In this document: positions 14,429 to 35,400 of the stretch, piece after piece
Layout: every line of letters begins with the position of its first letter
Position numbering within the stretch: position 1 is the stretch's first letter
Translations under genes and position numbers: made by a program
Assembly (NCBI GenBank): GCA_002868945.1
Contig: PKTX01000038.1
Span: 1 to 35,687, forward strand
Direction: 5' to 3'
Source: Desulfobulbaceae bacterium
GTDB lineage: Bacteria > Desulfobacterota > Desulfobulbia > Desulfobulbales > SURF-16
Length of the DNA stretch: 35,687 nt
The notes under the pieces: generated by a model
Told to the model about the DNA's origin: nothing
The model's input: the letters and a program-made list of their open reading frames with translations, nothing else
The model's database searches: none

Positions 14429-14623
14429 GGCATTTTATCCTTCAACCATGCCCCCGTCCATCACCGTCAACAGGGCCATGGAAGTGCGGGAATCAAATAT
14501 GTACCGGCATACAGCCTTCTTGAATTGCTCTCCCAAGCGCCAGCTAACACTCCGGCCTACCCCTCACCACTCTCCCGAGCACACCCTGGAACGACCCGGG
14601 TCTGCCATGGCGCAAAAAACTCT

Positions 14624-14653
14624 TTGACATGTATCCGTGTATGCGGATACATT
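14624..14653 (+). promoter_or_regulatory. arsR promoter with ArsR-type operator
   Basis: TTGACA (14624-14629) and TACATT (14648-14653) form a promoter with 18-bp spacing. Between and overlapping them lies a perfect inverted repeat TGTATCCG-N6-CGGATACA (14630-14651), a good ArsR/SmtB-family operator. Bound ArsR would block polymerase. The predicted transcription start falls at or next to the arsR ATG (14660), so the mRNA may have almost no leader. Confidence 0.8.
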
Positions 14654-14659
14654 GGCAGA

Positions 14660-15022: not shown

Positions 15023-15047
15023 CACGAGCCCCTTTCAAGGAATCCCC

Positions 15048-16136
15048 ATGACCAGATCAGCAAAAAAACTCTCCTTTCTTGACCGCTTTCTCACCCTCTG
15101 GATCTTCCTGGCCATGTCCATGGGCGTCATGACAGGCTATCTTTTCCCCGGCGTCCAGGACATCATCAATTCTTTTCAGGTGGGCACCACCAATATCCCC
15201 ATTGCCATTGGCCTCATTCTGATGATGTATCCGCCGCTGGCCAAGGTGAAGTATGAAAAACTGCACGAGGTGTTTCGCAACGTCAAGGTGCTGACCCTCT
15301 CCCTTGTCCAGAACTGGCTTGTCGGCCCCATCCTCATGTTCGGTCTGGCCGTGGCCTTTTTGTCCAACCAGCATGAGTACATGGTGGGGCTGATCCTCAT
15401 CGGCCTGGCGCGCTGCATTGCCATGGTCATTGTCTGGAACGAACTGGCCGACGGCGACACCGAGTATTGCGCCGGTCTGGTGGCCTTCAACTCCATCTTC
15501 CAGGTTCTCTTCTTCTCGGTCTATGCCTGGCTCTTCATCACCATCCTGCCCAAATGGTTCGGCATTGAAGGCATGGCAGTGGACATCTCCATGGGCCAGA
15601 TTGCCGAAAGCGTCTTCATCTACCTGGGCATTCCCTTTATCGCCGGCATGCTGACCCGCTTCATCGGCATGAAGACCAAGGGGGAGCAATGGTATCAGGA
15701 AAAACTCATTCCCCGCCTCAGCCCCTTTACCCTGATCTTCCTGCTCTTCACCATCCTGGTGATGTTCTCCCTGAAGGGTGATTATATTGTCCAGCTGCCC
15801 CTGGACGTGGTGCGCATTGCCGTGCCGCTGACCATCTACTTCCTGGTGATGTTTTTGCTTTCCTTTTTCATGTCCAAGAAGCTAGGCGCCACCTACGAGC
15901 AGGCCACCACCCTCTCTTTTACCGCTGCCTCCAACAATTTCGAGCTGGCCATTGCCGTGGCCATTGCCGTGTTCGGCATTGACTCGGGCCAGGCCTTTGC
16001 CGCGGTGATCGGCCCCCTGGTGGAGGTGCCGGTGTTAATCGGCCTGGTCCATGTCGCCCTCTGGTTCAGAAGGAAATATTTCCCTTACAGCAAAGAGACC
16101 CCCACCGGCGTCTGCCATGTTGCCTGCAAATCGTAA
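15048..16136 (+). CDS. acr3: ACR3-family arsenite efflux transporter
   Basis: This 362-residue inner-membrane protein with about ten membrane segments exports As(III). The ACR3 hallmarks are [12 protein letters not shown] at the N-terminus and [16 protein letters not shown] with Cys123, the catalytic Cys required in characterised ACR3 pumps. Later it has [14 protein letters not shown] with the essential Glu. ATG 15048 has AAGGA upstream and follows the arsR stop by 25 bases, so the pair is an operon under the ArsR operator. Length matches the family. Confidence 0.95.
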
Positions 16137-16194
16137 AGAGCGCACCCCGCCATTGCCAAGACTGCGGTGACTAAGGCGCAACAGAGAGTCATTA

Positions 16195-16746
16195 ATGAAA
16201 ATATCAGAAAAACTCTGGCAAGAATATCATGTAAAGCTCCGAGCGTTTGTTCAGAGCAGAGTTCCCGATGATGCTACGAGTGATGATATTCTTCAGGACG
16301 TGTTTTTAAAAATGCACTCCGGTTTGGCTTCCTTGCAGGACGAGACAAAGCTGAAAAGCTGGCTCTACCAAATTGCCCGAAACACTATCATTGATTATTT
16401 CAGGTCGCAGAAGCCTACCGCAGATATTCCCGAGTGGCTTTCGCAACCAGGCCCCGACCCCTCCGAAAAGGTCACTCAAGAGCTGTCGGAATGCCTTCGC
16501 CCCATGATACAACTTCTACCCGATACTTATCAGGAGGCAGTCACTTTGTCAGAATTGGAAGGATTGCGGCAGAAAGAAGTCGCCCAACTACAGGGTATTT
16601 CCCTCTCCGGCGCTAAATCACGGATCCTCCGAGGCCGAGCGCAGCTGAAAGAAATGCTAGCGGAGTGTTGTCGGCTTGAGTTCGACCACAGTGGTCGAAT
16701 TAGTGCGTACGAACGAAAAGACGGAAATTGTGGAGATTGTAGCTGA
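16195..16746 (+). CDS. sigZ: SigZ-like ECF RNA polymerase sigma factor
   Basis: This 183-residue ECF sigma factor has region 2 (D-D-I-L-Q-D-V-F-L-K-M, then L-K-S-W-L-Y-Q-I-A-R-N-T-I-I-D-Y-F-R) and region 4 (L-S-E-L-E-G-L-R-Q-K-E-V-A-Q-L-Q-G-I-S-L-S-G-A-K-S-R-I-L-R-G-R). The C-terminal tail has C-C-R-L-E-F-D and ends G-N-C-G-D-C-S, so Cys residues pair up like a metal or metalloid binding tail; this matches SigZ-type factors. No anti-sigma factor gene is adjacent. Its place between acr3 and arsM suggests it controls arsenic genes, with the Cys tail as a possible sensor (inference). Confidence 0.83.
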   Translation: MKISEKLWQEYHVKLRAFVQSRVPDDATSDDILQDVFLKMHSGLASLQDETKLKSWLYQIARNTIIDYFRSQKPTADIPEWLSQPGPDPSEKVTQELSECLRPMIQLLPDTYQEAVTLSELEGLRQKEVAQLQGISLSGAKSRILRGRAQLKEMLAECCRLEFDHSGRISAYERKDGNCGDCS

Positions 16747-16821
16747 TTATTTGCGTCCTTTTTGATGTTTCCGCGTCTATAAAGGTGAGAGTTTCTTATT
16801 ACCTTTACAGAGGAGGTCTAG

Positions 16822-17622
16822 ATGAAGAAGCAAAAGCACGACGTGATTCGAAGCGCGGTTCGGGAGAATTACGGAAAGATTGCTGTATCAGGGCGCTCCG
16901 GTTGCAGTTGTTCACCCTCATCTTGTTGTGGAACAGCCAATGGTGTAGCGGCAGAGGATATTTCACTTGGCTTAGGCTACTCCAGCGAGGATGTGACTGC
17001 CGTGCCGGAAGGAGCGAATATGGGCCTTGGGTGCGGCAATCCGCAGGCCATCGCTTCCTTGCAGCCCGGAGAAGTTGTGCTTGACTTAGGCAGCGGCGGC
17101 GGCTTCGACTGTTTCCTGGCGGCGCGGGCCGTTGGGGACAAAGGACATGTTATCGGTGTTGACATGACCCCGGAAATGATCACCAAGTCTCGAAAAAATG
17201 CGAATAAATCCGGCTTCGGGAACGTCGATTTTCGACTGGGAGAACTGGAAAATCTTCCTGTGGCCGATGGGATTGTCGATGTCATCATTTCCAATTGCGT
17301 CATCAACCTTTCTCCCGAGAAAGAAAGGGTCTTCAAGGAGTCTTTTCGCGTTTTGAAAACCGGTGGAAGGCTTGCGATTTCCGATGTGGTCGCCACTGCC
17401 GAGATGCCTGACGCCGTCAAGAATGATCTGGCAATGCATACCGGATGTATTTCGGGCGCATCGTACATCCCGGAACTTGAAGCGATGCTGAAGCGAGTCG
17501 GCTTTACGAACATCCAAATCAGGCCGAAAGATGAAAGCAGAGCCTTTATCCGTGACTGGGCACCCGGCAGCAAAATCGAGGACTATGTGGTTTCGGCAAC
17601 TATTGAGGCAATAAAACCATAG
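16822..17622 (+). CDS. arsM: Arsenite S-adenosylmethionine methyltransferase ArsM
   Basis: This 266-residue cytoplasmic enzyme methylates As(III) using S-adenosylmethionine. Motif I is D-L-G-S-G-G-G-F-D (88-96). The three catalytic As-binding cysteines are Cys71 (G-L-G-C-G-N-P), Cys159 (I-S-N-C-V-I-N-L-S) and Cys209 (H-T-G-C-I-S-G-A); the second and third are 50 residues apart, as in characterised ArsM. An extra Cys cluster at 28-36 (G-C-S-C-x4-C-C) sits in the N-terminus. The ATG follows GAGGAGGT. It ends TAG followed one codon later by TAA. Confidence 0.93.
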   Translation: MKKQKHDVIRSAVRENYGKIAVSGRSGCSCSPSSCCGTANGVAAEDISLGLGYSSEDVTAVPEGANMGLGCGNPQAIASLQPGEVVLDLGSGGGFDCFLAARAVGDKGHVIGVDMTPEMITKSRKNANKSGFGNVDFRLGELENLPVADGIVDVIISNCVINLSPEKERVFKESFRVLKTGGRLAISDVVATAEMPDAVKNDLAMHTGCISGASYIPELEAMLKRVGFTNIQIRPKDESRAFIRDWAPGSKIEDYVVSATIEAIKP

Positions 17623-17870
17623 GACTAACAACAGACGGGAATTGGGGGCAGAGTAAATTAAACCGCGGAATCTGCGGATCCTCTTCTTGTCGGTCTCCGC
17701 CGGGCTCTTTGTCACCATCTTGTCCACGGTGTGTTGATGCTGCACCGCCAATGTGCTTTCAGGACTGGCGCGTTGCTTTGCTCCTCGCCGTGACGCAAGT
17801 GACAAAATATGTGCACCTTCAACACAGTAATAAACTTGGAAAATTGAGATAAAGAAAGGAAGCAGCTGCC
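17623..17870. other. Intergenic region between arsM and arsC
   Basis: No gene is supportable in these 248 bases. The segment around 17764-17802 (GCGTTGCTTTGCTCC...CGTGACGC) resembles a widespread bacterial intergenic motif and may be a degraded repeat. The end supplies AAAGGAAG as ribosome-binding site for arsC. Confidence 0.35.
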
Positions 17871-18299
17871 ATGCCGAAAACCAGGATCCTCTTTCTCTGC
17901 ACCGGTAATTCCTGTCGCAGCCAGATGGCCGAGGGCTGGGCCAGACACATAAAGGGCGACGAGATTGACGCCTTTTCCGCCGGCATCGAGAGACACGGCC
18001 TCAACCCGCTGGCCGTCAAGGTCATGGCCGAGGCGGGCGTTGACATCTCCGGCCACGCCTCCAAAACCATCGACGACCTGCCCACCACCCGCTTCGACCT
18101 GGTGATCACGGTCTGCGGCCATGCCGACGAAAATTGCCCCCTCTTCCCCGGCCCGGCCCGGGTCATCCACCACGGCTTTGACGATCCACCCGCCCTGGCC
18201 GCCGACGCCGCCGGCGAAGAAGAGGCCCTGGCCCATTACCGCCGGGTGCGCGACGAGATCCGCGACTATGTCCTGACCCTGCCGCAGGGCACTACCTGA
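17871..18299 (+). CDS. arsC: Thioredoxin-type arsenate reductase ArsC
   Basis: This 142-residue cytoplasmic enzyme of the low-molecular-weight phosphatase fold reduces arsenate to arsenite for export. The P-loop is C-T-G-N-S-C-R-S with nucleophile Cys10 and Arg16, and the relay pair is Cys82 and Cys89 ([10 protein letters not shown]), the same numbering as Staphylococcus aureus ArsC. The F-D-D-P-P motif lies at about 103-107. It has its own ribosome-binding site (AAAGGAAG). It detoxifies cytoplasmic arsenate and is distinct from the respiratory ArrAB encoded 12 kb downstream. Confidence 0.95.
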
Positions 18300-18467
18300 A
18301 AAATTATGGGGTCACGGCTTTTGCAAAGCCTGCGACATTTGTTACGGTAAACACTCCTGTGCCTTCCTCCGGGCGATTTCACGTTTCAAGACCAAAGACA
18401 GACGATGCACTTCGGGCTGGGCAAGAGCACGGCAAAAGCCCCGGAGCAACAAAACCAAGGTCAACGG

Positions 18468-19424
18468 ATGCAAACAAAAAACACTCTCCCGGCAGGCGCC
18501 TTTTCTACAGTGCCGTGGCGCATGGCGACCCTGTTGTGCCTGGCCCTCTTGCTCCTTCTTTCTCAGGCCGGTTGCGACAGAAATGATACGACTGAAGAGC
18601 CGGTCATTCGCCTCGACAAGCTGGTTCCTTTGCCGGAAAGCTCTCCTGCCGTTGCCTCCGACAGCCTGAGAGTCGCCGTGGCCGCCATTATTTCGCCCCA
18701 AGGCACCATTCAGTCCTATCAGCCGTTTATACACTATCTGGAGAAGAAAACGGGCCGCAATATTGTCCTGGTGCAACGCAAAACGTACCAGGAGGTCAAT
18801 GACATGCTGGCTCGGGGTGTTGTCGAGGTAGCCTTTGTCTGCACAGGCGCCTATTGGGAAGGTCGCCGGGCAGGCAGCATGGACCTGCTGGTCGTTCCCC
18901 AGGTCAACGGCAAACTCACCTACCAATCCCTGCTGATCGCGCCACACCACTCCAGGGCAACCGGCATGGAAGGCTTGCGGGACAAGGTGTTCGCCTTTAC
19001 CGATCCTCTGTCAAACAGCGGTTATATGTATCCCCTCTCCGTGCTCCATAAAGCAGGAGAATCACCGGAGACCTTTTTTTCGCGCACGATTTTCACATAC
19101 AGCCATGATCGCTCCATAGTCTCGGTCATCGAAGGCATTGCCGACGGCGCGGCCGTGGACAGCATCATCTACGAATCCCTGATCCAAAAAGATCCGGAAA
19201 TCGGTAAATTGTCGAAAATCATATACCGGTCGCCGGAGTTCGGCATACCGCCGGTTGTCGTGCCCAAACATATCAAGCCGGAAACAGCCGCGCTGCTCAA
19301 AGAACTCTTTCTGGACGCCCATACCGATCCGGACGGCAGCAAGGCCCTGGCGGAGATTGGCGTGGAACGCTTTGTGGAAGCGGACGAGGCCATGTATGAC
19401 CCCTATTCCCTGGACAAAGAGTAA
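18468..19424 (+). CDS. PhnD/AioX-like arsenic oxyanion-binding lipoprotein
   Basis: This 318-residue phosphonate/oxyanion-binding protein (PhnD family) has a lipoprotein signal (hydrophobic about 18-33, lipobox L-S-Q-A-G-C, lipidated Cys36). It should sit in the periplasm anchored to the membrane. Cys125 in E-V-A-F-V-C-T-G-A-Y lies in the region where AioX-type sensors carry their As(III)-binding Cys. The stop overlaps the start of the following histidine kinase, the arrangement of sensory triads ArxX-ArxS-ArxR and ArrS-ArrK-ArrR. ATG 18468 is preferred; an upstream ATG at 18405 would place extra charged residues before the signal. The ligand (arsenate or arsenite) is inferred. Confidence 0.82.
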   Translation: MQTKNTLPAGAFSTVPWRMATLLCLALLLLLSQAGCDRNDTTEEPVIRLDKLVPLPESSPAVASDSLRVAVAAIISPQGTIQSYQPFIHYLEKKTGRNIVLVQRKTYQEVNDMLARGVVEVAFVCTGAYWEGRRAGSMDLLVVPQVNGKLTYQSLLIAPHHSRATGMEGLRDKVFAFTDPLSNSGYMYPLSVLHKAGESPETFFSRTIFTYSHDRSIVSVIEGIADGAAVDSIIYESLIQKDPEIGKLSKIIYRSPEFGIPPVVVPKHIKPETAALLKELFLDAHTDPDGSKALAEIGVERFVEADEAMYDPYSLDKE

Positions 19425-20881
19425 TGACAGACAAGCAGAACAGTTCTTGCCGCATTACCCCTGTAAAAAAACTTCTTTTAAGCGTCCCCTTGCGTGTCAA
19501 GATCCTGGGGCTGGCCATGGGCCTGATCCTGACCCTCAGCCTTGTCACCATCTTCCTTGTCCGGCAAGAACTGAACCGAAGCATCAACGCGGCCCTGCGC
19601 GAAGAAGCCACTCTGGTTGCCGGTGAACTCTCACACCAGGCCCGTGACCTCCTGCTGATCAACGATATCTTTGCCTTAAACAGCCTCTTGAAGAATATGC
19701 AGAACAACAGGCCGGATATCCGCTATATCTTTGTGCATGACAGCCGACAACACGTCCTGGCCCATACCTTTGGCAGCCTTTTTCCCATTGAGCTGCTGTT
19801 GCGACAGCAGCCCTTCCCGGGCGATGAACCCGGACCGATCACCAGGCAGATCGCCACCAGCGAAGGCCTGATCTGGGACAGTCACGCCGAGATTTTCCCC
19901 GGCGGCAACATCTATATCCGGGTGGGGGTCAAGGGGGACAACCTGCGTCGCCAACTCTCCACTCTGACCGGTGCGTTGGTGAACACCACTGCAATTGTGG
20001 CGGCAATCGGTATTGCCCTCTCCCTGTTTCTCTCCTGGCTCATTGCCAAACCGGTAACGCAACTGCTGGCCGCCACCAGGGAAATTCGGCGCGGCAACTA
20101 TGATTTTTCCCTGCCCAGGGAAGCGGATGACGAGATCGGCAAACTGATCGAAGGCTTCGGTGATATGGCGCGCTCCCTTGCCCAGGCGGAAAAGATCCGA
20201 CAGGAAAAGGAAAAGCTGCAAAAGGAGTTTCTGCAAAGACTCATGGCCGGCCAGGAGGGAGAACGCAAGCACATTGCCCGAGAGCTGCACGATCAGACAG
20301 GTCAGGCCCTGGCATCCTGCATGGTGGAGTTGAAGCTTCTCGAACAGGCCGCCGGGAGCGAGGCCCTTCAGCAGGGCATTGCCCGTCTGAAGAAATCCAT
20401 CACCAGCGAACTGGAATCCCTGCACGCCCTGGCCATGGATCTGCGTCCTTCCGTGCTCGACGACCTGGGGCTCATCCCGGCCCTGGAGATGTATATCAGC
20501 CGTTTCCAGAAACGACACCGCATAAAAATCAAACTCCGCCTGCTCGGCCCCCTTGAGGAGAGAATTGACGCCTGCGTGGAGACCTGCATCTACAGAATCA
20601 TCCAGGAATCACTTACCAATATGTCGAAATATGCCGAGGCCAGCGAGGCGGCTCTCTTTTTGGAGAGGAAACAAGAGACCATTCGTGGAGGGATCGAGGA
20701 TAACGGTATCGGCTTTGACCCAGAGGCCATTGATCCAACCAAAAGCATGGGCCTCTATGGCATGCGGGAAAGAATCGAGCTTCTGGGCGGCAAATTCAGT
20801 ATCAGCAGTGACCGGGAAATCGGCACCATGATCTCCTTTGAGTTGCCCATAAAACCGGAGGTGTGCCATGAAAAAAACTAA
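19424..20881 (+). CDS. NarX-type sensor histidine kinase of arsenic triad
   Basis: This 485-residue membrane kinase has TM1 at about 20-42, a periplasmic domain to about 180, TM2 at about 185-207, a HAMP linker (A-K-P-V-T-Q-L-L-A-A-T-R-E-I), a coiled coil, then a HisKA_3 domain with phospho-acceptor His289 (I-A-R-E-L-H-D-Q-T-G-Q-A-L). The HATPase has R-I-I-Q-E-S-L-T-N-M-S-K-Y-A and E-D-N-G-I-G-F. Its start shares one base with the stop of the lipoprotein gene, so the two are tightly coupled, and the lipoprotein presumably docks on its periplasmic domain. It overlaps the regulator gene by 14 bases. Confidence 0.88.
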   Translation: MTDKQNSSCRITPVKKLLLSVPLRVKILGLAMGLILTLSLVTIFLVRQELNRSINAALREEATLVAGELSHQARDLLLINDIFALNSLLKNMQNNRPDIRYIFVHDSRQHVLAHTFGSLFPIELLLRQQPFPGDEPGPITRQIATSEGLIWDSHAEIFPGGNIYIRVGVKGDNLRRQLSTLTGALVNTTAIVAAIGIALSLFLSWLIAKPVTQLLAATREIRRGNYDFSLPREADDEIGKLIEGFGDMARSLAQAEKIRQEKEKLQKEFLQRLMAGQEGERKHIARELHDQTGQALASCMVELKLLEQAAGSEALQQGIARLKKSITSELESLHALAMDLRPSVLDDLGLIPALEMYISRFQKRHRIKIKLRLLGPLEERIDACVETCIYRIIQESLTNMSKYAEASEAALFLERKQETIRGGIEDNGIGFDPEAIDPTKSMGLYGMRERIELLGGKFSISSDREIGTMISFELPIKPEVCHEKN

Positions 20882-21530
20882 GATCATGATCATTGACGAC
20901 CACAAGCTGCTCTCCTCCGGGCTGGCCATGCTGCTTAACGCCCAGGCCGATTACACGGTGACAGCTACACCGGACACCCCGGAGGAGGCGCTCCAACTTC
21001 TCGGCCAAGAGTGTGTGGAGCTGGTGCTACTCGACATTTCCCTGCCTGAAAAAAGCGGTCTGGAACTCCTGCCGGAAATCCTCGCCCTCTGCCCCCAGAC
21101 GCGGGTCATCATGATGACCATGCATGAAGACCAGCACTACCTGAAATCCGCCATCGCTGCCGGCGCCAGGGGCTTTGTCCTGAAAAAAGGAGTGGACATG
21201 GATCTCCTGTACGCCATTAAGGCGGTAATGAAGGGCGAGGTCTATATCCAGCCATCCATGCTCTCCGGCTTTATCACCGATGAGACGGGCGCCGCCACGG
21301 ACGACAAAAACCTTTAGGAGCACGAAAAGCTCTGGCAATTATTAAGCCCCCGCGAGCAGGAAGTTGTCCAGGGAGTTGCCAAGGGCTTTACCAGCAAGGA
21401 AATTGCCGAAAAATACTTCTTAAGTGAGAAAACCGTGGCAACCTACCGTTCCCGGGCCATGACCAAACTCGGCTTTGAAAACAGGGCCGAACTGGTTGAT
21501 TTTATCATCCGGCTGGGCAAGATCGACTGA
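20868..21530 (+). CDS. NarL-type response regulator with internal TAG
   Basis: The receiver domain (D-D-H at the N-terminus, phospho-acceptor Asp56 in L-L-D-I-S-L-P, T-M in strand 4, Lys in V-L-K-K-G) is followed at about residue 150 by TAG (21315-21317), in the linker. The same frame then continues for 70 codons with a complete LuxR-type helix-turn-helix (L-S-P-R-E-Q-E-V-V-Q-G-V-A-K-G, S-E-K-T-V-A-T-Y-R-S-R-A-M-T-K-L-G) and stops at TGA 21528-21530. Total 220 codons is exactly NarL-family length. If TAG stops translation, only a receiver of 149 residues is made and the triad has no DNA-binding output. It is partner of the upstream kinase. Confidence 0.85.
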
Positions 21531-21703
21531 GCCCGCCCTTTTTTCGCTCAACAGCCAGGGAGACGACAAGCACCATCCCTGCCGCCATCCTTGTCAGGAA
21601 AATCCCCGCACCGAAATCAAACTTTTCCCTCTACCCCCATTCCGACATTTCAGTCATAAAGAAAGCAACACCCTTCATTCTCTTCCCTCCCTTGCGGGTG
21701 TTA

Positions 21704-21747
21704 CCCGCGCCATCCCGTTTGAAAGCCAGGATGGCGCGGGCTTTTTC
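21704..21747 (+). terminator. Strong rho-independent terminator with alternative hairpin
   Basis: CCCGCGCCATCC (21704-21715) pairs perfectly with GGATGGCGCGGG (21729-21740), followed by CTTTTTCTT. Just upstream GCGGGT (21694-21699) can pair with ACCCGC (21703-21708), which overlaps the left arm, so the two stems are mutually exclusive. This ends the sensory-triad transcript or attenuates the genes downstream. Confidence 0.85.
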
Positions 21748-21785
21748 TTAACATCTCACAAAGAGAAACCACCTTCTGTCAAAAA

Positions 21786-24395
21786 ATGGCCTCCGAACTT
21801 TTCCAAAGAATCAGGGCAGGATTCAGCCGTTTATTCTTCCCGCAAAAACTGGCGGAATTTCTCTTTTCCAGAACCCTGGCCGTGGCCCTGACGGTTTTTG
21901 TAGCGGTGCTGGCCACCAGCACTCTGCTCTATGAAAAACTTCTGAAACAACAGGCTCAATCCACGGTGGCCGGTATTGCCGAACAGACCTTTACCTCCAT
22001 CAGGGAGCTGATGTTGCACGGACCGAGCCGTGATGAATTGCTGCGCTTCATCGAGGCGACCAGGGGAGCCCATGCCGAATCGCCCTACACCGTGGAAATC
22101 TATCGCAGCGAGGCGGTGATCAGGGAGTATGGTCCCATTGCGCAACCGATTGCGGATCAATATGTCCGGCAGGCCTTTACCACAGCCCGTCCCCTGATCC
22201 TCTCCCACCAGGGTATTAGCCGCCACCTCTACCCTCTGACCGGCAGCCGGTACTGCCTCTCCTGTCACGACAACAAGCCAGGTACCGTCCTGGGCCTGGT
22301 GGAGATCAAACAGCACTTGCCAGGGCTGGCCAGTCGAATGCGCAAACAGTACAGCTGGATTTTTATGGGCTACGGCCTGGCCATTATCGGTGCGGTGACC
22401 CTGATCACCAAAATGGTGGTGGGCCGGGTGGTCAATTCGGTGCACTGGTTCCAGGAAAAAGTGGACGCCATCCAGTCTGTTTCCGAATTGAGCGCCTTTG
22501 GCGAACTCTCCGCCCGGGATCTGCGTTTTTCCGAGCTGGACCAGGCCTTCGCCTCCGTGACCAGCCTAGCCGAACGGCTGCACAGGGTGGCGGTGGACAA
22601 GGAGATCCTTGAGTTTGAGATTGAATTGCTCGACAAATTCATTATCACCTCCAATGTGATCAAGGACTGGCGCACGTTCATCAAGGAACTGCTCATTGAC
22701 ATAAACAATGTTGTCGACACCTATGCCCTGCTTGCCTTCTTCCAAGAAGACGAGGAGACCTACGAACTGGACATCTTCTGGCGCAGTACACCGGCTCCCG
22801 AGCACCAGCGTCAGATGGAGGAGGTTGTCCAGGCCGAGCTCTACCGGCTCTTCCGTCTGCCCGGCGACAGCCCCCAGGTTCACATCATCCATCACGACTG
22901 CCGCTCGGATGTGCCACTGCCCGTGCACCTCTCCCGCCAGAATATCATGCTGCGCACCCGGAACCTTTTTCTCGACGCCCCCAAGGTGGGCGGTATCGTC
23001 GGCATCGGTATCCAGACCACCGTGGCTGAACAGCCTGTCTACGACATTGTTCTCAACAGCGTCCTGGCCACCATGCTCAACCTGGTGGGCTCGGTCAAGG
23101 CCATATCCAAACACACCAGGGAGCTGGAATACTACGCCTCCCGCGACCCCCTCACTCTGCTGCACAACCAGCGCATGTTCTGGGAACTCCTGGGCTACGA
23201 ATGCGGCAGGGCCGAACGCCACGACTATCAATTCGTGCTGCTGGTGATCGACCTGGACAACTTCAAAACCGTCAATGACAGGTACGGCCACGCCTTTGGC
23301 GATCTCTTTCTGCAACAGATCGCCGACACCCTGCGGCACACGGTGCGGGACGGTGATATGGTGGCCCGCTATGGCGGCGACGAATTCTGCGTGCTGCTGC
23401 CGGAAACCACAACGGCAGAGGGCATGGCCACGGCCGACCGCATAGCTCAGGCAATCGCGGCCTTGAAGCTCAGGACCAGGGAGGGGGTCAGCGTCCAGGC
23501 CACCATCTCCATGGGCATGGCCGTATTCCCGGACCATGGCCGTAGCAGCAGAGATCTCTTCCTGGTGGCCGATAATATGATGTATCGCGTCAAAGGAAGC
23601 GGCAAAGGCGCCATTGCCATACCGGAGCAGGAAGAGCTGCCTGAAATATTCAAGGGCGAAAAGGAGATCGACTTTCTCTACCAGGCCCTGGACCGGCAAA
23701 GCGTCACCCCCTTTTTCCAGCCCATCCTCGATCTGGCCAGCGGCCGTATCATCGCCCATGAACTGCTGATGCGCATTCCGGACAACAAAGGCCGTATGCT
23801 GCCTGCCGCCGCCTTTATCAAGGCTGCGGAACGAACCGGGCTCATCCACCAACTTGACCGGATCCTGCTGGAAAAGGCCTGCCAGGCCATGCATGAACAA
23901 GGTTACCAAGGCAGACTATTTGTCAACCTCTCGCCCTTATCCTTTATCAGCCAACATTTCTATGAGACCTTTAACGACACCCTGCGCAGTTACCGCATCA
24001 CCCCGGATCGCATTGTTGTCGAGGTCACTGAGCGAGAGAGCGTCAAAAGCAGGGCCCTGCTCCAGAAATTCCTGCGCCGCATGCAGGGTGACGGCTATCT
24101 CTTTGCCGTGGACGATTTCGGCTCCGGCTACTCCTCCTTCCACTATCTGAAACTCTTTGCCGTGGATTTCATTAAAATAGACGGTGAGTTTATCCGTAAT
24201 TGCCTGACAGACGCCGATTTTCTCGCCTATACCAAGAGCATTGTCACCCTGGCCAGGGAACTGCAGATTCCCACGGTGGCAGAATTCGTCGAAGATGAAG
24301 ATATCCTGAACAAAATAAAAGAGCTGGGGGTCAATTTCGGCCAGGGCTACCATATCGGTCATCCCTCCCCCCGCTTCATGGACAGGATGAGATGA
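21786..24395 (+). CDS. Haem-c sensor GGDEF-EAL cyclic-di-GMP protein
   Basis: This 869-residue inner-membrane signalling protein has TM1 at about 30-48, a periplasmic domain containing C-L-S-C-H (157-161), a c-type haem attachment site, then TM2 at about 191-212, a cytoplasmic helix/GAF-like region (about 250-450), GGDEF (Y-G-G-D-E-F, 529-534) and EAL. The EAL signature reads H-E-L-L with Glu659, then V-N-L-S, V-E-V-T-E-R-E, D-D-F-G-S-G-Y, I-K-I-D and A-E-F-V-E-D, so catalytic residues for phosphodiesterase activity appear present. It should respond to periplasmic redox or haem ligand and set cyclic-di-GMP. The ATG lacks a clear ribosome-binding site. The stop overlaps the next gene by four bases. 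Confidence 0.88.
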   Translation: MASELFQRIRAGFSRLFFPQKLAEFLFSRTLAVALTVFVAVLATSTLLYEKLLKQQAQSTVAGIAEQTFTSIRELMLHGPSRDELLRFIEATRGAHAESPYTVEIYRSEAVIREYGPIAQPIADQYVRQAFTTARPLILSHQGISRHLYPLTGSRYCLSCHDNKPGTVLGLVEIKQHLPGLASRMRKQYSWIFMGYGLAIIGAVTLITKMVVGRVVNSVHWFQEKVDAIQSVSELSAFGELSARDLRFSELDQAFASVTSLAERLHRVAVDKEILEFEIELLDKFIITSNVIKDWRTFIKELLIDINNVVDTYALLAFFQEDEETYELDIFWRSTPAPEHQRQMEEVVQAELYRLFRLPGDSPQVHIIHHDCRSDVPLPVHLSRQNIMLRTRNLFLDAPKVGGIVGIGIQTTVAEQPVYDIVLNSVLATMLNLVGSVKAISKHTRELEYYASRDPLTLLHNQRMFWELLGYECGRAERHDYQFVLLVIDLDNFKTVNDRYGHAFGDLFLQQIADTLRHTVRDGDMVARYGGDEFCVLLPETTTAEGMATADRIAQAIAALKLRTREGVSVQATISMGMAVFPDHGRSSRDLFLVADNMMYRVKGSGKGAIAIPEQEELPEIFKGEKEIDFLYQALDRQSVTPFFQPILDLASGRIIAHELLMRIPDNKGRMLPAAAFIKAAERTGLIHQLDRILLEKACQAMHEQGYQGRLFVNLSPLSFISQHFYETFNDTLRSYRITPDRIVVEVTERESVKSRALLQKFLRRMQGDGYLFAVDDFGSGYSSFHYLKLFAVDFIKIDGEFIRNCLTDADFLAYTKSIVTLARELQIPTVAEFVEDEDILNKIKELGVNFGQGYHIGHPSPRFMDRMR

Positions 24396-28799: not shown

Positions 28800-29804
28800 G
28801 TGCAATCACTAAACCAAGACCGGAACACCCAATCTATTCTGCGAGACTCCTTCGGCAGACAGATAAACTATCTGCGCCTGGCGGTGACGGATCGCTGCAA
28901 CCTCACCTGTCGATATTGCCGTCCCCGCAACACCGGCAGCCCCAAGGCGGCATTGCTCAGCTATGACGAACTCCTGCGGCTGGTGCGGGTCTTTGCCTCC
29001 CTCGGCATCAGCAAGGTCAGGCTCACCGGCGGTGAGCCGTTCGCCCGCACCGGCTTTATTGGTCTGGTCAAGGAAATCAGCAAAATATCCGGTATCAACA
29101 ACGTCTGCATCACCACCAATGGCACCCTCTGTTTCGATCATATCAAGGAGCTGAAAAAAAACGGCGTCAGCGGCCTGAACTTCAGCCTGGACACCCTGTC
29201 GCCGGAGCGCTTCCGGCAGATTACCGGCGCCGATCTCTTCCATGAAGCCTTTGCCTCGATCATGGAGGCGGTCCTGCAGGGCATCAAGGTCAAGGTCAAT
29301 GTGGTTGTCCTTGACGCCCTTAACACCGACGAACTTCTCCATCTGGCCGGCCTTGCCGAAAACCTGCCCATTGAAGTGCGCTTCATCGAACCCATGCACT
29401 TTAACGGCAGGAAAAATTTTACCACCTCTACCTGGACCATCTCCAGCCTGGCCCGTTTCTTCCGGGAGAAGATCCCCGGCTGCACCGAGGCCCTTTCGGC
29501 CAGTCCGTCAACCGCTCGTCTCTTCACAGCCAGGAATTACCAGGGCCGTATCGGCGTGATCGGCGGCCATTCCCGCACCTTCTGTCACACCTGCAACAAG
29601 GTCCGCGTCACCCCCCTGGGAATGATGAAAACCTGCCTGTACGACAAAGAGGTGCTTGATTTAAAAAAAATGCTGCGCGCCGGTTATGCAGACCAGGCCC
29701 TTGTCAGGGCTATCCATGACACCGTTCAGAAAAAGGCGGCCAGCGGCACGGAAGCCGCCAGCGGGGCAGACGCCACCTGCTCCATGGCACTCATTGGAGG
29801 ATAG
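28800..29804 (+). CDS. moaA: MoaA-like radical SAM cofactor-biosynthesis protein
   Basis: This 334-residue protein carries out the first step of molybdopterin synthesis from GTP. The radical SAM motif C-N-L-T-C-R-Y-C follows R-L-A-V-T-D-R. Later motifs are L-T-G-G-E-P and the C-terminal second cluster F-C-H-T-C-N-K-V-R plus M-K-T-C. It ends in Gly-Gly, a conserved functional tail of MoaA, so TAG here is a true stop. The start is GTG 28800; the ribosome-binding site is weak and an internal start is possible. It lies upstream of MOSC and arrA genes, so it probably boosts cofactor supply for ArrA. It may be a paralogue of a housekeeping MoaA. Confidence 0.9.
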   Translation: MQSLNQDRNTQSILRDSFGRQINYLRLAVTDRCNLTCRYCRPRNTGSPKAALLSYDELLRLVRVFASLGISKVRLTGGEPFARTGFIGLVKEISKISGINNVCITTNGTLCFDHIKELKKNGVSGLNFSLDTLSPERFRQITGADLFHEAFASIMEAVLQGIKVKVNVVVLDALNTDELLHLAGLAENLPIEVRFIEPMHFNGRKNFTTSTWTISSLARFFREKIPGCTEALSASPSTARLFTARNYQGRIGVIGGHSRTFCHTCNKVRVTPLGMMKTCLYDKEVLDLKKMLRAGYADQALVRAIHDTVQKKAASGTEAASGADATCSMALIGG

Positions 29805-29811: not shown

Positions 29812-30312
29812 ATGACAGCAAAAAACGGTTTTATCGAGGCCATCTGCATCAGTGCCAGAAAAGGAGTGCTGAAAAAAGCGGTGGAGCAGGCCCTCTTTGA
29901 AAAAAACTGGGGCATCAGACAAGACGCCCACGCCGGCGTCTGGCACCGACAGGTCTCCCTGCTGGCCGGGGAAAGCATTGATGCGGTGCGCAAGAAAATC
30001 CCGGGTCTCCGGCATGGGGTCTTTGCCGAAAATCTGGTGACCCGCAATGTCGAACTGGCGGAACTGACCATCGGCGACCGGCTCTGCCTGGGCCGGGATG
30101 TAGTCCTGGAAGTGACCCAGATCGGCAAGAAATGTCATAACGACGGCTGCGTTATCAAAAAAAAGACCGGCGATTGCATCATGCCCCGGGAGGGCCTGTT
30201 TTGCAAGGTTGTTAAAGGCGGCGATGTAAAGGTGGGCAACAGCTGTGCCCCCTGCGGTTTCAACGCGGAAAAATGCATTACTAATCCTAAGAAAGGAGGA
30301 GAATGGGAATGA
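29812..30312 (+). CDS. MOSC-domain molybdenum cofactor protein
   Basis: This 166-residue protein has a single MOSC domain (W-H-R-Q-V-S-L-L-A, G-V-F-A-E-N-L-V-T-R, T-I-G-D-R-L-C-L-G). The C-terminus has an unusual Cys set, G-K-K-C-H-N-D-G-C, then a Cys in G-D-C-I-M-P-R-E-G, and C-A-P-C-G-F, typical of MOSC proteins that act in sulfur or metal-cofactor transfer. GAGG-ATAGAGG precedes the ATG. Its last bases overlap the arrA start, so it is coupled to arrA. Its exact reaction is unknown; cofactor maturation for ArrA is inferred. Confidence 0.85.
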   Translation: MTAKNGFIEAICISARKGVLKKAVEQALFEKNWGIRQDAHAGVWHRQVSLLAGESIDAVRKKIPGLRHGVFAENLVTRNVELAELTIGDRLCLGRDVVLEVTQIGKKCHNDGCVIKKKTGDCIMPREGLFCKVVKGGDVKVGNSCAPCGFNAEKCITNPKKGGEWE

Positions 30313-32849
30313 AGATTAAAAGACGTGATTTTTTAAAGTTAAGCGCCGCCGGCGGTGCAGCGGTGGCCCTGACCAAGGGGAAATCCCTGAACGCCTTTGC
30401 CATGTCAAAAAGAGGGGCGATCAAGGGTGAAAGCCCCGGCGAATGGAAGGCCTCCACCTGCCAGGGCTGCACCACCTGGTGCCCGGTTGAAGTCTTTGTC
30501 CAGGACGGCCGGGCTGTCAAGGTGCGGGGTAATCGCTACTCCAAGCAGAATGACGGCAACTGCTGCCCCCGCGGCCATCTGGCCCTCCAGCAGGTCTACG
30601 ATCCGGACCGGATCAAGGTACCGATGAAACGGACCAATCCCAAGAAGGGCCGCGGTGTTGACCCCAAATTCGTGCCCATCTCCTGGGACGAGGCCTTGAA
30701 CACCATTGCCGACCAGATGATGGAGCTGCGCAACAACGATGAGAGCGAAAAATACGCCCTGATGCGCGGGCGCTACACCTATCTGCGCGACGTGCTCTAC
30801 GAGATCATGACCAAGGTCTACGGTTCCCCCAACAATATCTCCCACAGCTCCATGTGCGCCGAGGCCGAAAAATTCGGCGTCTATTACACAGAGGGCCAGT
30901 GGGCCTACCGTGATTACGACCTGGACAAGACCAAATACGTCTTGATCTGGGGCTGTGATCCGGTGGCCAGCAACCGCATGATCCCTGCCACCATCAAACG
31001 CCTGGGCGATGCGGCGGACCGCGGCAGCCTGGCCGTGGTGGACCCCCGCTACACCACCTCGGCGGCCAAGGCCAATGAATGGCTGCCGGTGGATCCGGGC
31101 AGCGACGGCGCCGTGGCCTGCGCCATTGCCCACGTCATGCTCACCGAGGGCCTCTGGTACAAGCCCTTTGTCGGGGATTTCAAGGACGGCAAGAACCGCT
31201 TCCAGGCCGGTCACAATGTCAATGAGACCGATTTTGCCGAAAAGGAGAGTTACGGCATCGTCAAGTGGTGGAACCTGGTGGTCAAGGACATGACCCCTGC
31301 CAAGGCCGCCAAACTGGCCGGGGTTGACGCCGACCAGATCAAACGTATCGCCCGTGGCATGGCCAAGGCCGCTCCCAATGTCTGCGTCTGGATGGGACCC
31401 GGCTGCGCCATGCAGGCCCGCGGCGCCTATAACGGTATGGCGGTCCATGCCCTGGCAGGCCTTACCGGCGGTGTTGACAATGAGGGCGGCTCAATGCAGA
31501 CCGCCAAGATCCCGGTGAACAAGGCCCCCAAGGCCTACAAGGAATACCTGGACGACGTTGCCAAGAAGAAGACCAAGTACAAGAAGATCGACCAGCGCGG
31601 CTACCTCAACTCACCGGCCCTCAAGAAAGGCAAGTCCGGCGGCGGTGTCACCACCAACAACGCCGCCACCGGCATCCTGAACAAGGACCCCATGGAAATC
31701 AAGATGATTGTCGGCTACATGAACAACTTCGTCTTTGCCAACAACGGCACCGAGAAGTGGGAAAAGGCCCTGGAATCGGTGCCCTTCATCGTCCACCTCA
31801 CCTCCCATGCCTCGGAGTTCTCCATGTACTCCGACATCATCCTGCCCTGCCGCATCAACCTCTTTGAGCGCATCGGTTTTGTCAAGACCAAGGCCAATGG
31901 CTACGCCACCTGCTCCCTGAATCTCAACACCGTGGAGCCTGTTTTCCGGGCCCTGAACGAGGAAACGGAATTCCCCTGGCTCATCGGCGAAAAGCTCAAG
32001 GAGCGTGGCTTCCCCAACCTCATCGAGTGTCTGCGTGATGTCTACCCCGACCCGGAAACCGGCAAAAAGGCCACCAACTCAATGGAATTCACTGAGTATG
32101 CCCTCAAGTACTACACCAAGAAGATGTGGGACGGCAAGGAAGACGTGGGCGGCGACAAGATCAACGGCTGGGCCGAGATGAAGAAACGCGGCATGTGGAA
32201 CTCCGACCATTACGAGTATCGCAAACACTGGGGTGGTCATTTCAAAACAGAAACCAAGAAATTCGAGTTCTACTCCGAGACCCTGAAAAAGGCCCTCAGC
32301 GGCCATGCCGAAAAACATAACACCTCGGTGGACAAGGTCCTGGAGGCGTGCAACTACACGGCCCGTGGCGAACTGGCCTTTGTTCCCCATTACGAAGAGC
32401 CCATGCGCCACGGCAGCAGGAGGGAGTACCCCTTTGTCTTTATCGACTATAAGTCCCGCCTCAACCGCGAGGGTCGCAGCGCCAACAACCCCTGGTACTA
32501 CGAGTTCAAGCATGTGGATCCGGGTGACGTGGGCGAGCAGGACACCCTTCGCCTCAACCCCGGTGACGCCAGGAAACTGGGAATCAGGGACGGCGACAGG
32601 GTACGAATCACCTCCACCGGCGGCAGCGGTTACAGCGTTGCCCGTCTCTGGGAAGGGGTCAAGCCCGGCACCGTTTCCAAATCATTCGGCCAGGGCCACT
32701 GGGCCTATGGCCGCACCGCGGCAGCCGAGTTTGGCAAGAAGGAGCGCGGCATCAACAACAACACCATTATTCCTTGGGAACTTGAACGCCTTTCCGGCTC
32801 CAACCCCCGTAACGGCGGCCATACCCTGGTCAAAATTGAAAAAGCTTAA
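30309..32849 (+). CDS. arrA: Respiratory arsenate reductase catalytic subunit ArrA
   Basis: This 846-residue molybdopterin protein of the DMSO-reductase family reduces As(V) to As(III) in the periplasm. The Tat signal K-R-R-D-F-L-K is at residues 5-11. Cys51, Cys54, Cys58 and Cys86 bind [4Fe-4S] (C-x2-C-x3-C-x27-C). Cys183 (S-S-M-C-A-E-A-E-K-F-G) should ligate Mo. Arg155, Lys188 and Tyr200 align exactly by spacing with Shewanella ANA-3 ArrA residues Arg165, Lys198 and Tyr210 around the arsenic site. ATG 30309 is preferred, lying eight bases after GGAGGA; ATG 30303 is only two bases away. Related ArxA (arsenite oxidation) shares much of this, so direction is inferred. Confidence 0.87.
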   Translation: MKIKRRDFLKLSAAGGAAVALTKGKSLNAFAMSKRGAIKGESPGEWKASTCQGCTTWCPVEVFVQDGRAVKVRGNRYSKQNDGNCCPRGHLALQQVYDPDRIKVPMKRTNPKKGRGVDPKFVPISWDEALNTIADQMMELRNNDESEKYALMRGRYTYLRDVLYEIMTKVYGSPNNISHSSMCAEAEKFGVYYTEGQWAYRDYDLDKTKYVLIWGCDPVASNRMIPATIKRLGDAADRGSLAVVDPRYTTSAAKANEWLPVDPGSDGAVACAIAHVMLTEGLWYKPFVGDFKDGKNRFQAGHNVNETDFAEKESYGIVKWWNLVVKDMTPAKAAKLAGVDADQIKRIARGMAKAAPNVCVWMGPGCAMQARGAYNGMAVHALAGLTGGVDNEGGSMQTAKIPVNKAPKAYKEYLDDVAKKKTKYKKIDQRGYLNSPALKKGKSGGGVTTNNAATGILNKDPMEIKMIVGYMNNFVFANNGTEKWEKALESVPFIVHLTSHASEFSMYSDIILPCRINLFERIGFVKTKANGYATCSLNLNTVEPVFRALNEETEFPWLIGEKLKERGFPNLIECLRDVYPDPETGKKATNSMEFTEYALKYYTKKMWDGKEDVGGDKINGWAEMKKRGMWNSDHYEYRKHWGGHFKTETKKFEFYSETLKKALSGHAEKHNTSVDKVLEACNYTARGELAFVPHYEEPMRHGSRREYPFVFIDYKSRLNREGRSANNPWYYEFKHVDPGDVGEQDTLRLNPGDARKLGIRDGDRVRITSTGGSGYSVARLWEGVKPGTVSKSFGQGHWAYGRTAAAEFGKKERGINNNTIIPWELERLSGSNPRNGGHTLVKIEKA

Positions 32850-32878: not shown

Positions 32879-33631
32879 ATGACGCAATACGCGATGGTTA
32901 TAGATCTGCATAAATGCATGGGCTGTGGCGCCTGCGCCCTGGCCTGTAAGAGTGAAAACAATACCGCCATGCGGCGCAACGGCCAGACCCACAACTGGGC
33001 CGACTACCAGCATGACATGAGCGGCACCTTCCCCAAGCTTCGCTACACCGCCAGGCCGGTTCTCTGCAACCACTGCAGCAATGCCCCCTGTGTGGAGGCC
33101 TGCCCGGTTGAGCCCAAGGCCATGTTCAAGACCAAGGAAGGCATCACCATGCACAATGACGAGCGTTGCATCGGTTGCCAAGCCTGTCAGGACGCCTGTC
33201 CCTACTCAAGGATGGAGTGCAAAATCGGTGAAACCAGTGTGATCAGCTACAATGAAGAGGGTGAACCGTACGAAACCTTCTATGCCGACAAGACAGCCGC
33301 CATTGCCGGCGGCACCATGTCAGGCGCAGAACTGGCCGCAAAAACAGACAACCCACCCCACCGTACCAAATACAACCATCCCGACTATCAGGATGTGCGC
33401 CGCGACGGCATCACGGAAAAGTGTATTTTCTGTGAACACAGGGTCAAGAAGGGAGAGTTGCCCTACTGCGTGGTCTCCTGCCCGGCCAAGGCCAGGATCT
33501 TCGGAGATATCAACGATCCCAAGAGCGAGGTGAGTGCTCTGCTTAAAAAGCACAAGCCGTCCGTTCTGAAACCCCATGAAGGCACCAAGCCGAACGTCTA
33601 TTACATCAGAGAGTACAGCGTCAAAAAATAG
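32879..33631 (+). CDS. arrB: Arsenate reductase iron-sulfur subunit ArrB
   Basis: This 250-residue electron-transfer subunit has four ferredoxin-type cysteine groups: C-M-G-C-G-A-C-A-L-A-C, C-N-H-C-S-N-A-P-C-V-E-A-C, C-I-G-C-Q-A-C-Q-D-A-C-P-Y-S and C-I-F-C-E-H-R plus C-V-V-S-C. This is the DmsB/ArrB pattern for four [4Fe-4S] clusters. It carries electrons to ArrA. AAGGAGG lies upstream; it follows arrA by 29 bases. No ArrC/NrfD-type membrane subunit follows in the window. It ends with TAG. Confidence 0.92.
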   Translation: MTQYAMVIDLHKCMGCGACALACKSENNTAMRRNGQTHNWADYQHDMSGTFPKLRYTARPVLCNHCSNAPCVEACPVEPKAMFKTKEGITMHNDERCIGCQACQDACPYSRMECKIGETSVISYNEEGEPYETFYADKTAAIAGGTMSGAELAAKTDNPPHRTKYNHPDYQDVRRDGITEKCIFCEHRVKKGELPYCVVSCPAKARIFGDINDPKSEVSALLKKHKPSVLKPHEGTKPNVYYIREYSVKK

Positions 33632-33749: not shown

Positions 33750-34382
33750 ATGGACACGATTACCCGGAAACAGAAGTTGAGCGACAGCTACAAACTCATG
33801 GCCGCCTGCTTTTATGAGCCCGAACCTGCCCTGTTTACCGAAGAGAAGGTGTTCCAGAACCTCTCACGGCTCATTACCGATCTCTGCCCCGAGGCCGAAA
33901 TCAACACCGAGGATATGCAACAGGCCCTGCAGAAGGACAATGATGTGGACCTCCAGGTTGCCCATGCCGAATTGTTCATCGGCCCCTTTGAGCTCAAGGC
34001 ATCACCCTATGGTTCGACCTACCTTGAACAGGGACGGCGGCTCATGGGCGATACCACCATGGAGGTGCTGAAACACTACCGCAAGGCCGGCCTGGAGATT
34101 GATGTGGAACAGCCGCCCGACCATATCGCCATTGAACTTGAGTTTGTCTCCCACCTCTATGGCCTGGAGGCACAGGCTCTTCAGGATAGCGACAAGGAAA
34201 AGGCCTCTGACTTGGCACAACAACGCCAAATCTTCATCCAGACCTATGTACGTCCATGGATGCCGGCCTTTATCAATAATGTACGCAGCGGCACGGAACA
34301 CGCCTTTTACCGCAGCCTGGCAGACTGCTTTGAGAAGTTTGTCCGGCACATGGAAGGACTTGAAAAGCCGCCGGCAAATTGA
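33750..34382 (+). CDS. arrD: TorD/ArrD-type molybdoenzyme chaperone
   Basis: This 210-residue all-helical cytoplasmic chaperone binds the Tat signal of ArrA and helps insert the cofactor before export. The TorD-family pattern is visible: an early L-S-D-S-Y-K-L-M-A-A-C-F-Y-E-P segment, V-A-H-A-E-L-F-I-G-P-F in the middle, P-Y-G-S-T-Y-L, and D-H-I-A-I-E-L-E-F-V-S-H-L at about 126-138, the conserved family motif. It follows arrAB, as expected. The weak ribosome-binding site and upstream hairpins suggest lower expression than ArrAB. Confidence 0.88.
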   Translation: MDTITRKQKLSDSYKLMAACFYEPEPALFTEEKVFQNLSRLITDLCPEAEINTEDMQQALQKDNDVDLQVAHAELFIGPFELKASPYGSTYLEQGRRLMGDTTMEVLKHYRKAGLEIDVEQPPDHIAIELEFVSHLYGLEAQALQDSDKEKASDLAQQRQIFIQTYVRPWMPAFINNVRSGTEHAFYRSLADCFEKFVRHMEGLEKPPAN

Positions 34383-34404: not shown

Positions 34405-35400
34405 ATGCTGACGCAACCTCTTATCAACAGGCTCTGCCGTGATGCAGGGCCGCCTGTCACCCTGGCAAGAGAGCGTTGCCTGCGGTCGCGATTCAACAAA
34501 AATCGCTGCACGCTCTGCTTGCAGGCATGTGCACGCAGAGCCCTGACCTTAGGCGACAATGGTCTTCACCATGATGCGGAAGAATGCACGGGGTGCATGC
34601 AATGCACCGCGGTCTGCCCCAACGACGCGGTTACCGGCTCGCTTGATTTTCCGGCTCTTCTGCACGAAGTGGCGGCCAAGAGTTCCATACTGCTTTCCTG
34701 CCAAAAGGGCCTCCTCGGCCATGATCATATCAGGATCCCCTGTGTGGGCATGTTCTCCGAGGCCATGCTGGCCGCCATCAATGCCGTGACAAGACAGGAG
34801 TGCTTCCTTGACACCAGCGGCTGTGCCGACTGTGTCAACAGTCACTGCCTGCCGGCAATCCGGGAGAAAATGGACAAGCTGGCAAGTCGACTGCAGGACA
34901 AAAGTAAAATCAGAGTGAACTATTATGGCGACCGACATGCTCCTTTGCCCTGTTCCGGTAAGAATGCACGGAGATCAATCCTCAGGCTGTTTCGCAAGAA
35001 CATCACGACCCTGAGCAAAGAGGCGTTCAACCCTGCAGAGCCATGTTCTGCGCGCCAAACAGCGTCACAGGACAAAAAACCACCGCAAACCGCTACGGTA
35101 CTCCTGCATGCTTTATCTCAATTGGATGAAAAAAGAAAAGATGAAGGGGCAACCCTGCTCTCTTACTTTTTTTCAGCCGCAACTACTAACCAGTGCGACC
35201 TTTGCCCATTATGCACGGCCATGTGTCCCACCGGCGCCTTACATAGAAAAAAGCAGGAGGAAAAAAGAACCCTTACCTATACCAGCGCCCGATGCAGCGG
35301 CTGCGGCTTATGTGCCGACTTCTGCAAGAAAAAAGCCCTGACCATTTTCGGCGGATTTTCGGGAGATCCCCATGAAGCACAGCCGTTGGCAGTGGGCTGA
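34405..35400 (+). CDS. Multi-cluster 4Fe-4S ferredoxin protein of arr locus
   Basis: This 331-residue protein has four ferredoxin-like Cys groups: C-T-L-C-L-Q-A-C, C-T-G-C-M-Q-C-T-A-V-C-P, C-D-L-C-P-L-C-T-A-M-C-P and C-S-G-C-G-L-C-A-D-F-C. Between them are C-Q-K-G, a lone Cys (I-P-C-V-G-M-F-S-E-A-M-L) and C-A-D-C-V-N-S-H-C. There is no signal peptide or membrane segment, so it should be cytoplasmic. It lies 22 bases after the chaperone gene. It may pass electrons to or from the arsenate reductase system or support cofactor assembly; I do not recognise a named family. Confidence 0.75.
   Translation: MLTQPLINRLCRDAGPPVTLARERCLRSRFNKNRCTLCLQACARRALTLGDNGLHHDAEECTGCMQCTAVCPNDAVTGSLDFPALLHEVAAKSSILLSCQKGLLGHDHIRIPCVGMFSEAMLAAINAVTRQECFLDTSGCADCVNSHCLPAIREKMDKLASRLQDKSKIRVNYYGDRHAPLPCSGKNARRSILRLFRKNITTLSKEAFNPAEPCSARQTASQDKKPPQTATVLLHALSQLDEKRKDEGATLLSYFFSAATTNQCDLCPLCTAMCPTGALHRKKQEEKRTLTYTSARCSGCGLCADFCKKKALTIFGGFSGDPHEAQPLAVG

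Follow-up and report, generated by a model that had tools for sequence, protein, structure and literature searches.

ArrE of a Desulfobulbaceae arr locus: a soluble polyferredoxin of one family with ArxB2 and a candidate NapF-like maturation protein

In the arrangement known from Geobacter sp. OR-1, arrAB is described as flanked by arrDE, with arrD coding for a chaperone resembling TorD and arrE for a putative 4Fe-4S protein; the presence of arrDE was required when 370 GTDB genomes were listed (accessible part of PMC11283718). According to the available parts of two further papers (PMC2500031, PMC8076601), arr commonly occurs without arrC, and in Shewanella the electron route to arr is CymA (PMC2500031). 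For the Arr-like ArrCAB of Desulfurivibrio dismutans, nitrate was proposed as the substrate (PMC12142623, in the part available). The arx clusters carry a ferredoxin gene, arxB2, whose expression was reported and which, in the accessible text of PMC6549141, is presented as apparently arx-specific, with no ARR homologs described and its role called unclear. NapF is a cytoplasmic protein with labile [4Fe-4S] clusters, found in complex with NapA in E. coli; NapA of R. sphaeroides depends on it for activity and for Fe-S reconstitution, but its effect in E. coli and W. succinogenes is marginal (PMC10609526, in the part available).

The window, i.e., the whole stretch of DNA analysed, is the complete contig C75 (35,687 bases) of a Desulfobulbaceae genome of 3.7 Mb in 83 contigs. 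Its final genes form the order moaA, MOSC, arrA, arrB, torD, a gene for a 331-aa ferredoxin, and a truncated short ORF, stopped by the contig end, which reads like the start of a porin gene:

28800..29804, + strand: moaA-like molybdenum-cofactor gene (TIGR02666, 304.9 bits, above the cut-off of 284)
29812..30312, + strand: MOSC-domain gene (PF03473), present in 28 compared loci (cluster c7)
30303..32849, + strand: arrA, molybdopterin subunit with a Tat signal and an RGRY motif (NF041714, 1129.7 bits, cut-off 1600; TAT_signal)
32879..33631, + strand: arrB, iron-sulfur subunit (NF041715, 239 bits, below the cut-off of 450)
33750..34382, + strand: arrD, chaperone of the TorD/NarJ family (PF02613, 1.8e-29)
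34405..35400, + strand: arrE, ATG start, 331-aa polyferredoxin lacking an export signal and homologous to ArxB2; the name follows from its position and description (PMC11283718, accessible part)

The ferredoxin gene starts 22 bases downstream of the end of the TorD-like gene, and the contig end, which is the right edge of the window, follows 287 bases beyond it. The match of the arrA product to the NF041714 equivalog extends over its full length with a score under the curated cut-off, and the RGRY motif is present, so the product is called ArrA-type, with arsenate as the likely substrate. Upstream of arr, an arsenic island (14525-24395) comprises, by Pfam, genes for an ArsR-type regulator, an SBF-family transporter (reading like ACR3), a methyltransferase (reading like ArsM), a phosphonate-type binding protein, a histidine kinase, and a GGDEF-EAL protein. 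Type I restriction-modification genes are located at 6596-12538, with HsdR and an N6 methylase assigned by Pfam and another gene that reads like the specificity subunit.

The 331-aa protein is encoded as a 4Fe-4S protein directly after arrD in an arrAB locus with an (R/K)GRY-type ArrA, which is how arrE is defined in the accessible part of PMC11283718, and by position and description the gene is the arrE of arrABDE clusters. Compared by description, it is like ArrE of the Geobacter sp. OR-1 type in its post-arrD position, its putative 4Fe-4S character and the (R/K)GRY ArrA. The marks of an arx cluster, an XGRGWG ArxA and ArxC, are absent here: ArrA has RGRY and the contig has no NrfD gene.

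All Pfam matches of ArrE are to ferredoxin-type or related Fe-S domains, the best at residues 34-77 and 261-311, and its AlphaFold model has ferredoxin domains at about 12-79 and 255-329, with pLDDT below 50 at 176-221. The following elements are distinguished within the gene:

34477..34530, + strand: Cys set I (C25, C35, C38, C42), nearly invariant
34585..34617, + strand: Cys set II (C61, C64, C67, C71), a 4Fe-4S motif, nearly invariant
34642..34938, + strand: middle domain (aa 80-178) with the fifth Cys set (C99, C113, C140, C143; each in 104 of 104 members) and PCxG; predicted fold closest to MvhD-type chains
34969..34980, + strand: internal twin-arginine motif RRSI (aa 189-192; family consensus RRxF) in a linker modelled with low confidence
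35194..35226, + strand: Cys set III (C264, C267, C270, C274), CxxCxxCxxxCPTGA, with C267 replaced by His or Leu in five arx members
35293..35325, + strand: Cys set IV (C297, C300, C303, C307), nearly invariant

ArrE contains 25 cysteines, 20 of them nearly invariant among relatives: in 104 aligned members C267 is kept in 99 and each of the other 19 in 103 or 104. A single row (L117), in which seven cysteines are missing through a gap or a frame problem, accounts for what is lost in sets I and II. The 104 exclude one arr-type member (L149) and one broken copy (L150); the family rows numbered 92, or 83 after removal of repeats, with L124 and L129 as fragments only. By hydropathy no N-terminal signal and no transmembrane segment is found in ArrE (highest 19-residue mean 1.42; 0.11 for the first 40 residues). 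The protein is predicted to be cytoplasmic, being soluble and devoid of a signal, while ArrAB acts outside. The description given in the earlier note, a soluble protein with four Cys-rich clusters and extra Cys groups following the chaperone, is thus borne out, with one extra group.

A contig scan with the single sequence gave no relative confirmed by tblastn, whereas the alignment search succeeded; the best 80 of 120 were kept, and the set leans to arr, since the pattern was built from arr-type proteins. Even so, the alignment of arr-linked proteins alone retrieved two arx loci, L127 and L128 (tblastn E 7e-13 and 9e-12, calculated against the candidate stretches only), both in the arxXSR / arxB2-A-B-C-D arrangement known from the literature and both with a GRGWG ArxA. 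Three further arx loci (L180, L181, L183) also have GRGWG. The arxB2 gene lies before arxA in L127, L128, L180, and L181 and is the last gene, after arxD, in L183; all five loci keep the NrfD subunit. ArxB2 is homologous to ArrE over most of its length (23-26% identity to the window protein for L128 and L127), sharing 19 of the 20 conserved cysteines, the internal RR and a TorD in the cluster, and the five arx members form one supported group within the family tree (100/98). The two differ at position 267, which is His in four arx members and Leu in one but Cys in the other 99 aligned members. As judged from their sequences, ArrE and ArxB2 are one family, differing at set III. The His or Leu in set III makes an altered cluster in the arsenite-oxidase branch possible.

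The family extends to other molybdoenzymes. Some members stand beside TtrA-type enzymes (L145 and L146, whose best NCBIfam match is TtrA, far below the cut-off; L147 and L176 group there in the tree), one beside a DmsA-like enzyme (L148), some in a B-C-A type with NrfD (L175, L177-L179, L182), and some in an A-B-TorD type without NrfD (L184, L185, L187, L188). The catalytic frames of the non-arr groups have a Tat-like N-terminal motif in 10 of the 11 checked, the eleventh (L179) having an uncertain start. All 19 non-arr, non-orphan loci contain a catalytic subunit, 18 a TorD and 12 an NrfD, one of the 12 being a 123-aa fragment (L146) that entered because no transmembrane filter was applied (11 with the filter). 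Orphan copies (L142-L144, L186) have no catalytic subunit, TorD or NrfD beside them. Three of these (L142, L143, and L144, from genomes G046, G024, and G037) adjoin moaA and/or MOSC genes without arrABD. In G024 and G037 no ArrA passes the threshold of 1e-60, and probing with ArxA brought up only a 736-aa and a 745-aa frame (E 7e-47 and 4e-34).

The association with arr is tight. The gene was found at 81 arr and five arx loci, as the search proposed in the earlier note would have it; "arr" among the 81 is the default label for loci fitting no other group, with the catalytic gene seen in 62. TorD is present in all 76 of these loci that extend 0.9 kb or more upstream, and ArrA in all 62 that extend 4.5 kb or more. 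The motif is covered by 64 of 71 catalytic rows (the window and the named loci), 60 having RGRY, two GRGWG and two another sequence (different enzymes, L060 and L084). A search of 97 genomes, own included, gave 18 with an ArrA match, 17 of them relatives; the ferredoxin follows torD at 14 of the 17 relatives' loci (in L036 cut by the contig end) and is missing at L043 and L048, L049 contributing no verdict. Among 257 genomes of the order, own included, the ferredoxin occurs in 56 (E up to 1e-20), ArrA in 56 (E up to 1e-60) and both in 50 (Fisher p 1e-39, not corrected for kinship). At 44 of 57 ArrA places (second fragments in G216 and G185 omitted) arrE lies on the same strand, 1512-1861 bases downstream of arrA. 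Downstream of arrE, Nitrospirota loci, including L067, L082, and L087, have a recurrent gene run (clusters c12, c17, c10, c14).

The exceptions are few. Among the six genomes with ArrA only, the matches in G177 and G217 begin at contig base 1, G226 has stops, G189 has only a 155-aa frame, and in G112 the contig of an arrC locus is broken off before arrD. The sixth, G027 (L043), is 95% complete and has arrABD without arrE, no arrE match in the genome and no NrfD gene in the stretch read, which is clearly a real absence of arrE. The six ferredoxin-only genomes comprise G132 with a broken copy containing stops, the orphan-bearing G024 and G037, G205 with one member in another cluster and another on a separate contig, and G194 and G211.

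The linker holds the nearly invariant internal twin-arginine motif. Among the 104 aligned members R190 is present in all and R189 in 102, with Lys in the other two; residue 192, usually Phe in the family, is Ile in the window protein. In the stretch from Cys 143 to Cys 264, conservation exceeds 85% at positions 189, 190, and 192 alone, and the rest of the linker is weakly conserved (median top-residue fraction 0.23).

A comparable motif occurs in NapF. The E. coli protein (164 aa) has SRRGIL at residues 6-11, and R-x-x-[FL]-[LF] precedes the PPW block in 21 of 26 NapF-like frames, with a twin Arg in 11 of the 26, the pattern being loose and counted without a chance control; the 26 are the readable frames from 30 loci, and a few of them are under the family cut-off. 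No mention of an RR motif of NapF was found in the open-licence literature. ArrE shares with NapF a cytoplasmic location (predicted for ArrE), several [4Fe-4S] clusters, a gene that accompanies that of a Tat-exported molybdoenzyme (PMC10609526, accessible part), and the R-x-x-F-L-like motif, but NapF is about half its size and has the motif near the N-terminus, whereas that of ArrE lies in the middle, and NapF is encoded with NapD, while ArrE is paired with TorD. Tested with the NapF model (TIGR00402), ArrE scores 34.2 bits over aa 262-312 only, below the cut-off of 102.2.

By analogy with NapF, ArrE is rather probably a maturation ferredoxin for the Tat-exported ArrA/ArrB. It would act in the cytoplasm on apo-ArrA, and perhaps on ArrB, by handing over Fe-S clusters or loading them reductively, with ArrD protecting the Tat signal in the meantime. 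The internal RRxF may dock ArrE to a reader of the motif, be it ArrD, the catalytic subunit or TatBC, and through this docking only the loaded enzyme would be exported; a separate quinol dehydrogenase would then pass electrons for arsenate to ArrB. Such a role is favoured by the tight arrA-B-D-E order with its near-constant TorD pairing, by the occurrence of the family in three or more molybdoenzyme cluster types besides arr and arx, where just 12 of the 19 non-arr loci have NrfD but 18 have TorD, and by the conservation of the cysteines and RR in 104 members within an otherwise variable linker. The lower average hydropathy behind RR than in ArrA signals, the similar motif of NapF, and the cytoplasmic NapA-binding character of NapF also speak for it. 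Against it count the arrABD locus without arrE in G027, the orphan copies in G046, G024, and G037, which a dedicated helper of ArrA does not explain, the marginal effect of NapF in two of the species mentioned above, the use of NapD rather than TorD by Nap, the ArrE score far under the NapF cut-off with no homology found past the ferredoxin motifs, and the fact that no functional experiment on ArrE or ArxB2 was found in the open-licence literature. An assembly role had been offered in the earlier note as one option, and it gains support here.

The proposal may be widened, tentatively and with less chance of being right than wrong, to a general class of molybdoenzyme maturases. ArrE/ArxB2 would then be a cytoplasmic protein with five centres, and its internal pseudo-Tat signal would occupy the partner that reads the signal peptide of the catalytic subunit, export being licensed only after Fe-S loading, and NapF would present the same docking motif near its N-terminus.

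The fifth Cys set of the middle domain is likely a metal site. This domain was modelled separately (pLDDT 89.6), because a fold search with the whole model aligned mainly the two ferredoxin domains. The four top VIA rows are 5odc_D, 5odh_D, 8rvu_F, and 7bkb_F, chains of Hdr complexes which we take to be of the MvhD type, with Z of 5.5-5.9 and rmsd of 3.4-3.5 over 87 residues, against 4.1 for the next row; a family not listed by VIA is not thereby shown to be absent. In Foldseek the first, third, and fifth places go to MvhD-type chains (E 0.03-0.07, probability 0.97-0.99; no E below 0.001), while ranks 2 and 4 are an unrelated synthase (probability 0.35). The likeness to MvhD-type chains lies in the predicted fold of aa 80-178, with a Cys-x-Gly aligned in a weak local match, but no significant sequence similarity accompanies it: the Pfam listings of 14 members, taken to an E of 1, contain no MvhD/FlpD match, hhalign of the middle-domain profile against the genome's own protein read as MvhD gives a probability of 0.4%, and the profile has no significant match among PDB sequences. 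An MvhD-like fold of the middle domain is therefore a lead with middling support from modelling.

MvhD transfers electrons. With five Cys sets suggestive of an electron wire and a middle domain modelled closest to MvhD-type chains of Hdr complexes, ArrE might be a cytoplasmic electron carrier, passing low-potential electrons through its clusters and the MvhD-like domain so that the molybdenum centre becomes active or the enzyme is linked to a donor in the cytoplasm, without delivering any cluster. This is unlikely: ArrA has a Tat signal, so a steady supply of cytoplasmic electrons is not expected after export, and the likeness to MvhD is structural only, with the modest Z values and a Foldseek E of 0.03 or worse. 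The electron role, the other option in the earlier note, thus ranks below maturation.

The internal RR could also be a true Tat signal, by which ArrE or its second half would be exported together with ArrAB. The motif is nearly invariant and resembles the SRRxFLK consensus (PMC3712460, in the part available), yet some 190 residues precede it, and it is usually not followed by the hydrophobic stretch typical of Tat signals. The median hydropathy downstream of RR is 0.66 (n=104) against 1.37 for ArrA signals (n=79), i.e., lower on average with overlapping ranges. Export of ArrE by this route is very unlikely.

The earlier note had placed the ferredoxin in the position of a missing ArrC membrane subunit. 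It was right that no NrfD/ArrC gene is visible: none is present among the window ORFs or elsewhere on the contig, and the five NrfD matches of the genome are all on other contigs. Its caveat that an arrC might lie just past the edge, which is the contig end, finds little support in relatives: of their arr loci, 45 extend 5 kb or more to either side, and none of these has an NrfD gene on the same strand within 7 kb. Such a gene occurs at one of the 81 arr loci, L051 of G011, a genome of the same family. There genes for a triheme protein, a Tat-type Fe-S protein, and an NrfD protein directly follow arrE on the same strand (L051 / L223, 985-3472), possibly as a quinol module for ArrAB. The arrABD genes of G011 are on another contig, the end of which overlaps the start of the arrE contig by 18 residues of arrE, from which we infer a joint locus of arrABD, arrE, and the NrfD module.

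Loci with arrC exist in the order as well. L219, L220, and L048 have the arrangement arrC-arrA-arrB, with an ArrA about 52-53% identical to that of the window, and represent a second arr type. Both L219 and L220 are cut before the arrE position, and L048, the only arrC locus of the order readable through torD, has no adjacent arrE.

That ArrE substitutes for ArrC as the electron path to ArrB is highly improbable. The idea would suit the lack of NrfD on the window contig and, as far as readable, at 80 of the 81 arrE-bearing arr loci, and in its favour stands L048; this point is qualified, as the genome of L048 (G046) has an orphan arrE elsewhere. Against it, ArrE is soluble, with no NrfD domain match and no transmembrane segment where an NrfD/ArrC subunit has about 8 helices, and so offers no membrane part for quinone; NrfD stands alongside family members at 12 of the 19 non-arr loci (one a fragment), in arx and at the G011 arr locus; and arr without arrC is usual in the sources cited at the outset (PMC2500031, PMC8076601, accessible parts).

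Electrons must hence reach ArrB by a route other than ArrE, as the earlier note had suggested with a CymA-like cytochrome elsewhere, and the candidates are quinol dehydrogenases of the NapC/NrfH or NrfD type encoded elsewhere in the genome. There are six matches to PF03264 (NapC/NrfH/CymA family) in it, and C25 carries two of these, one beside napA (1534 bits) and one beside a multi-haem protein that reads as NrfA. Of the five NrfD matches, one setting is beside a TtrA-like enzyme and two further settings are on C69; the others read as parts of dsr and hydrogenase clusters.

A redox or metalloid sensor regulating the arr locus, to which the many cysteines and the upstream genes for a phosphonate-type binding protein and a histidine kinase might point, is scarcely credible, as no DNA-binding or signalling domain is among the matches shown and the gene order links arrE to a chaperone and structural genes.

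ArrE is a member of a named but uncharacterised family and probably does not take the place of a missing membrane subunit. The NapF-like role is proposed because arrE pairs with the gene of a chaperone type that takes care of such enzymes ahead of export, and does so whether or not a membrane subunit is encoded alongside. Two loose annotations, ArxB2 (PMC6549141) and arrE (PMC11283718), as given in the accessible parts of these papers, are joined in one family that has further members next to other molybdoenzymes, an internal twin-arginine motif that hardly varies, and probably a fifth metal site, and with this comes a maturation hypothesis that is testable because a conserved look-alike of an export signal sits in the middle of ArrE. 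For annotation it follows that ArrE in arsenate-respiring genomes should not be read as the electron-input subunit.
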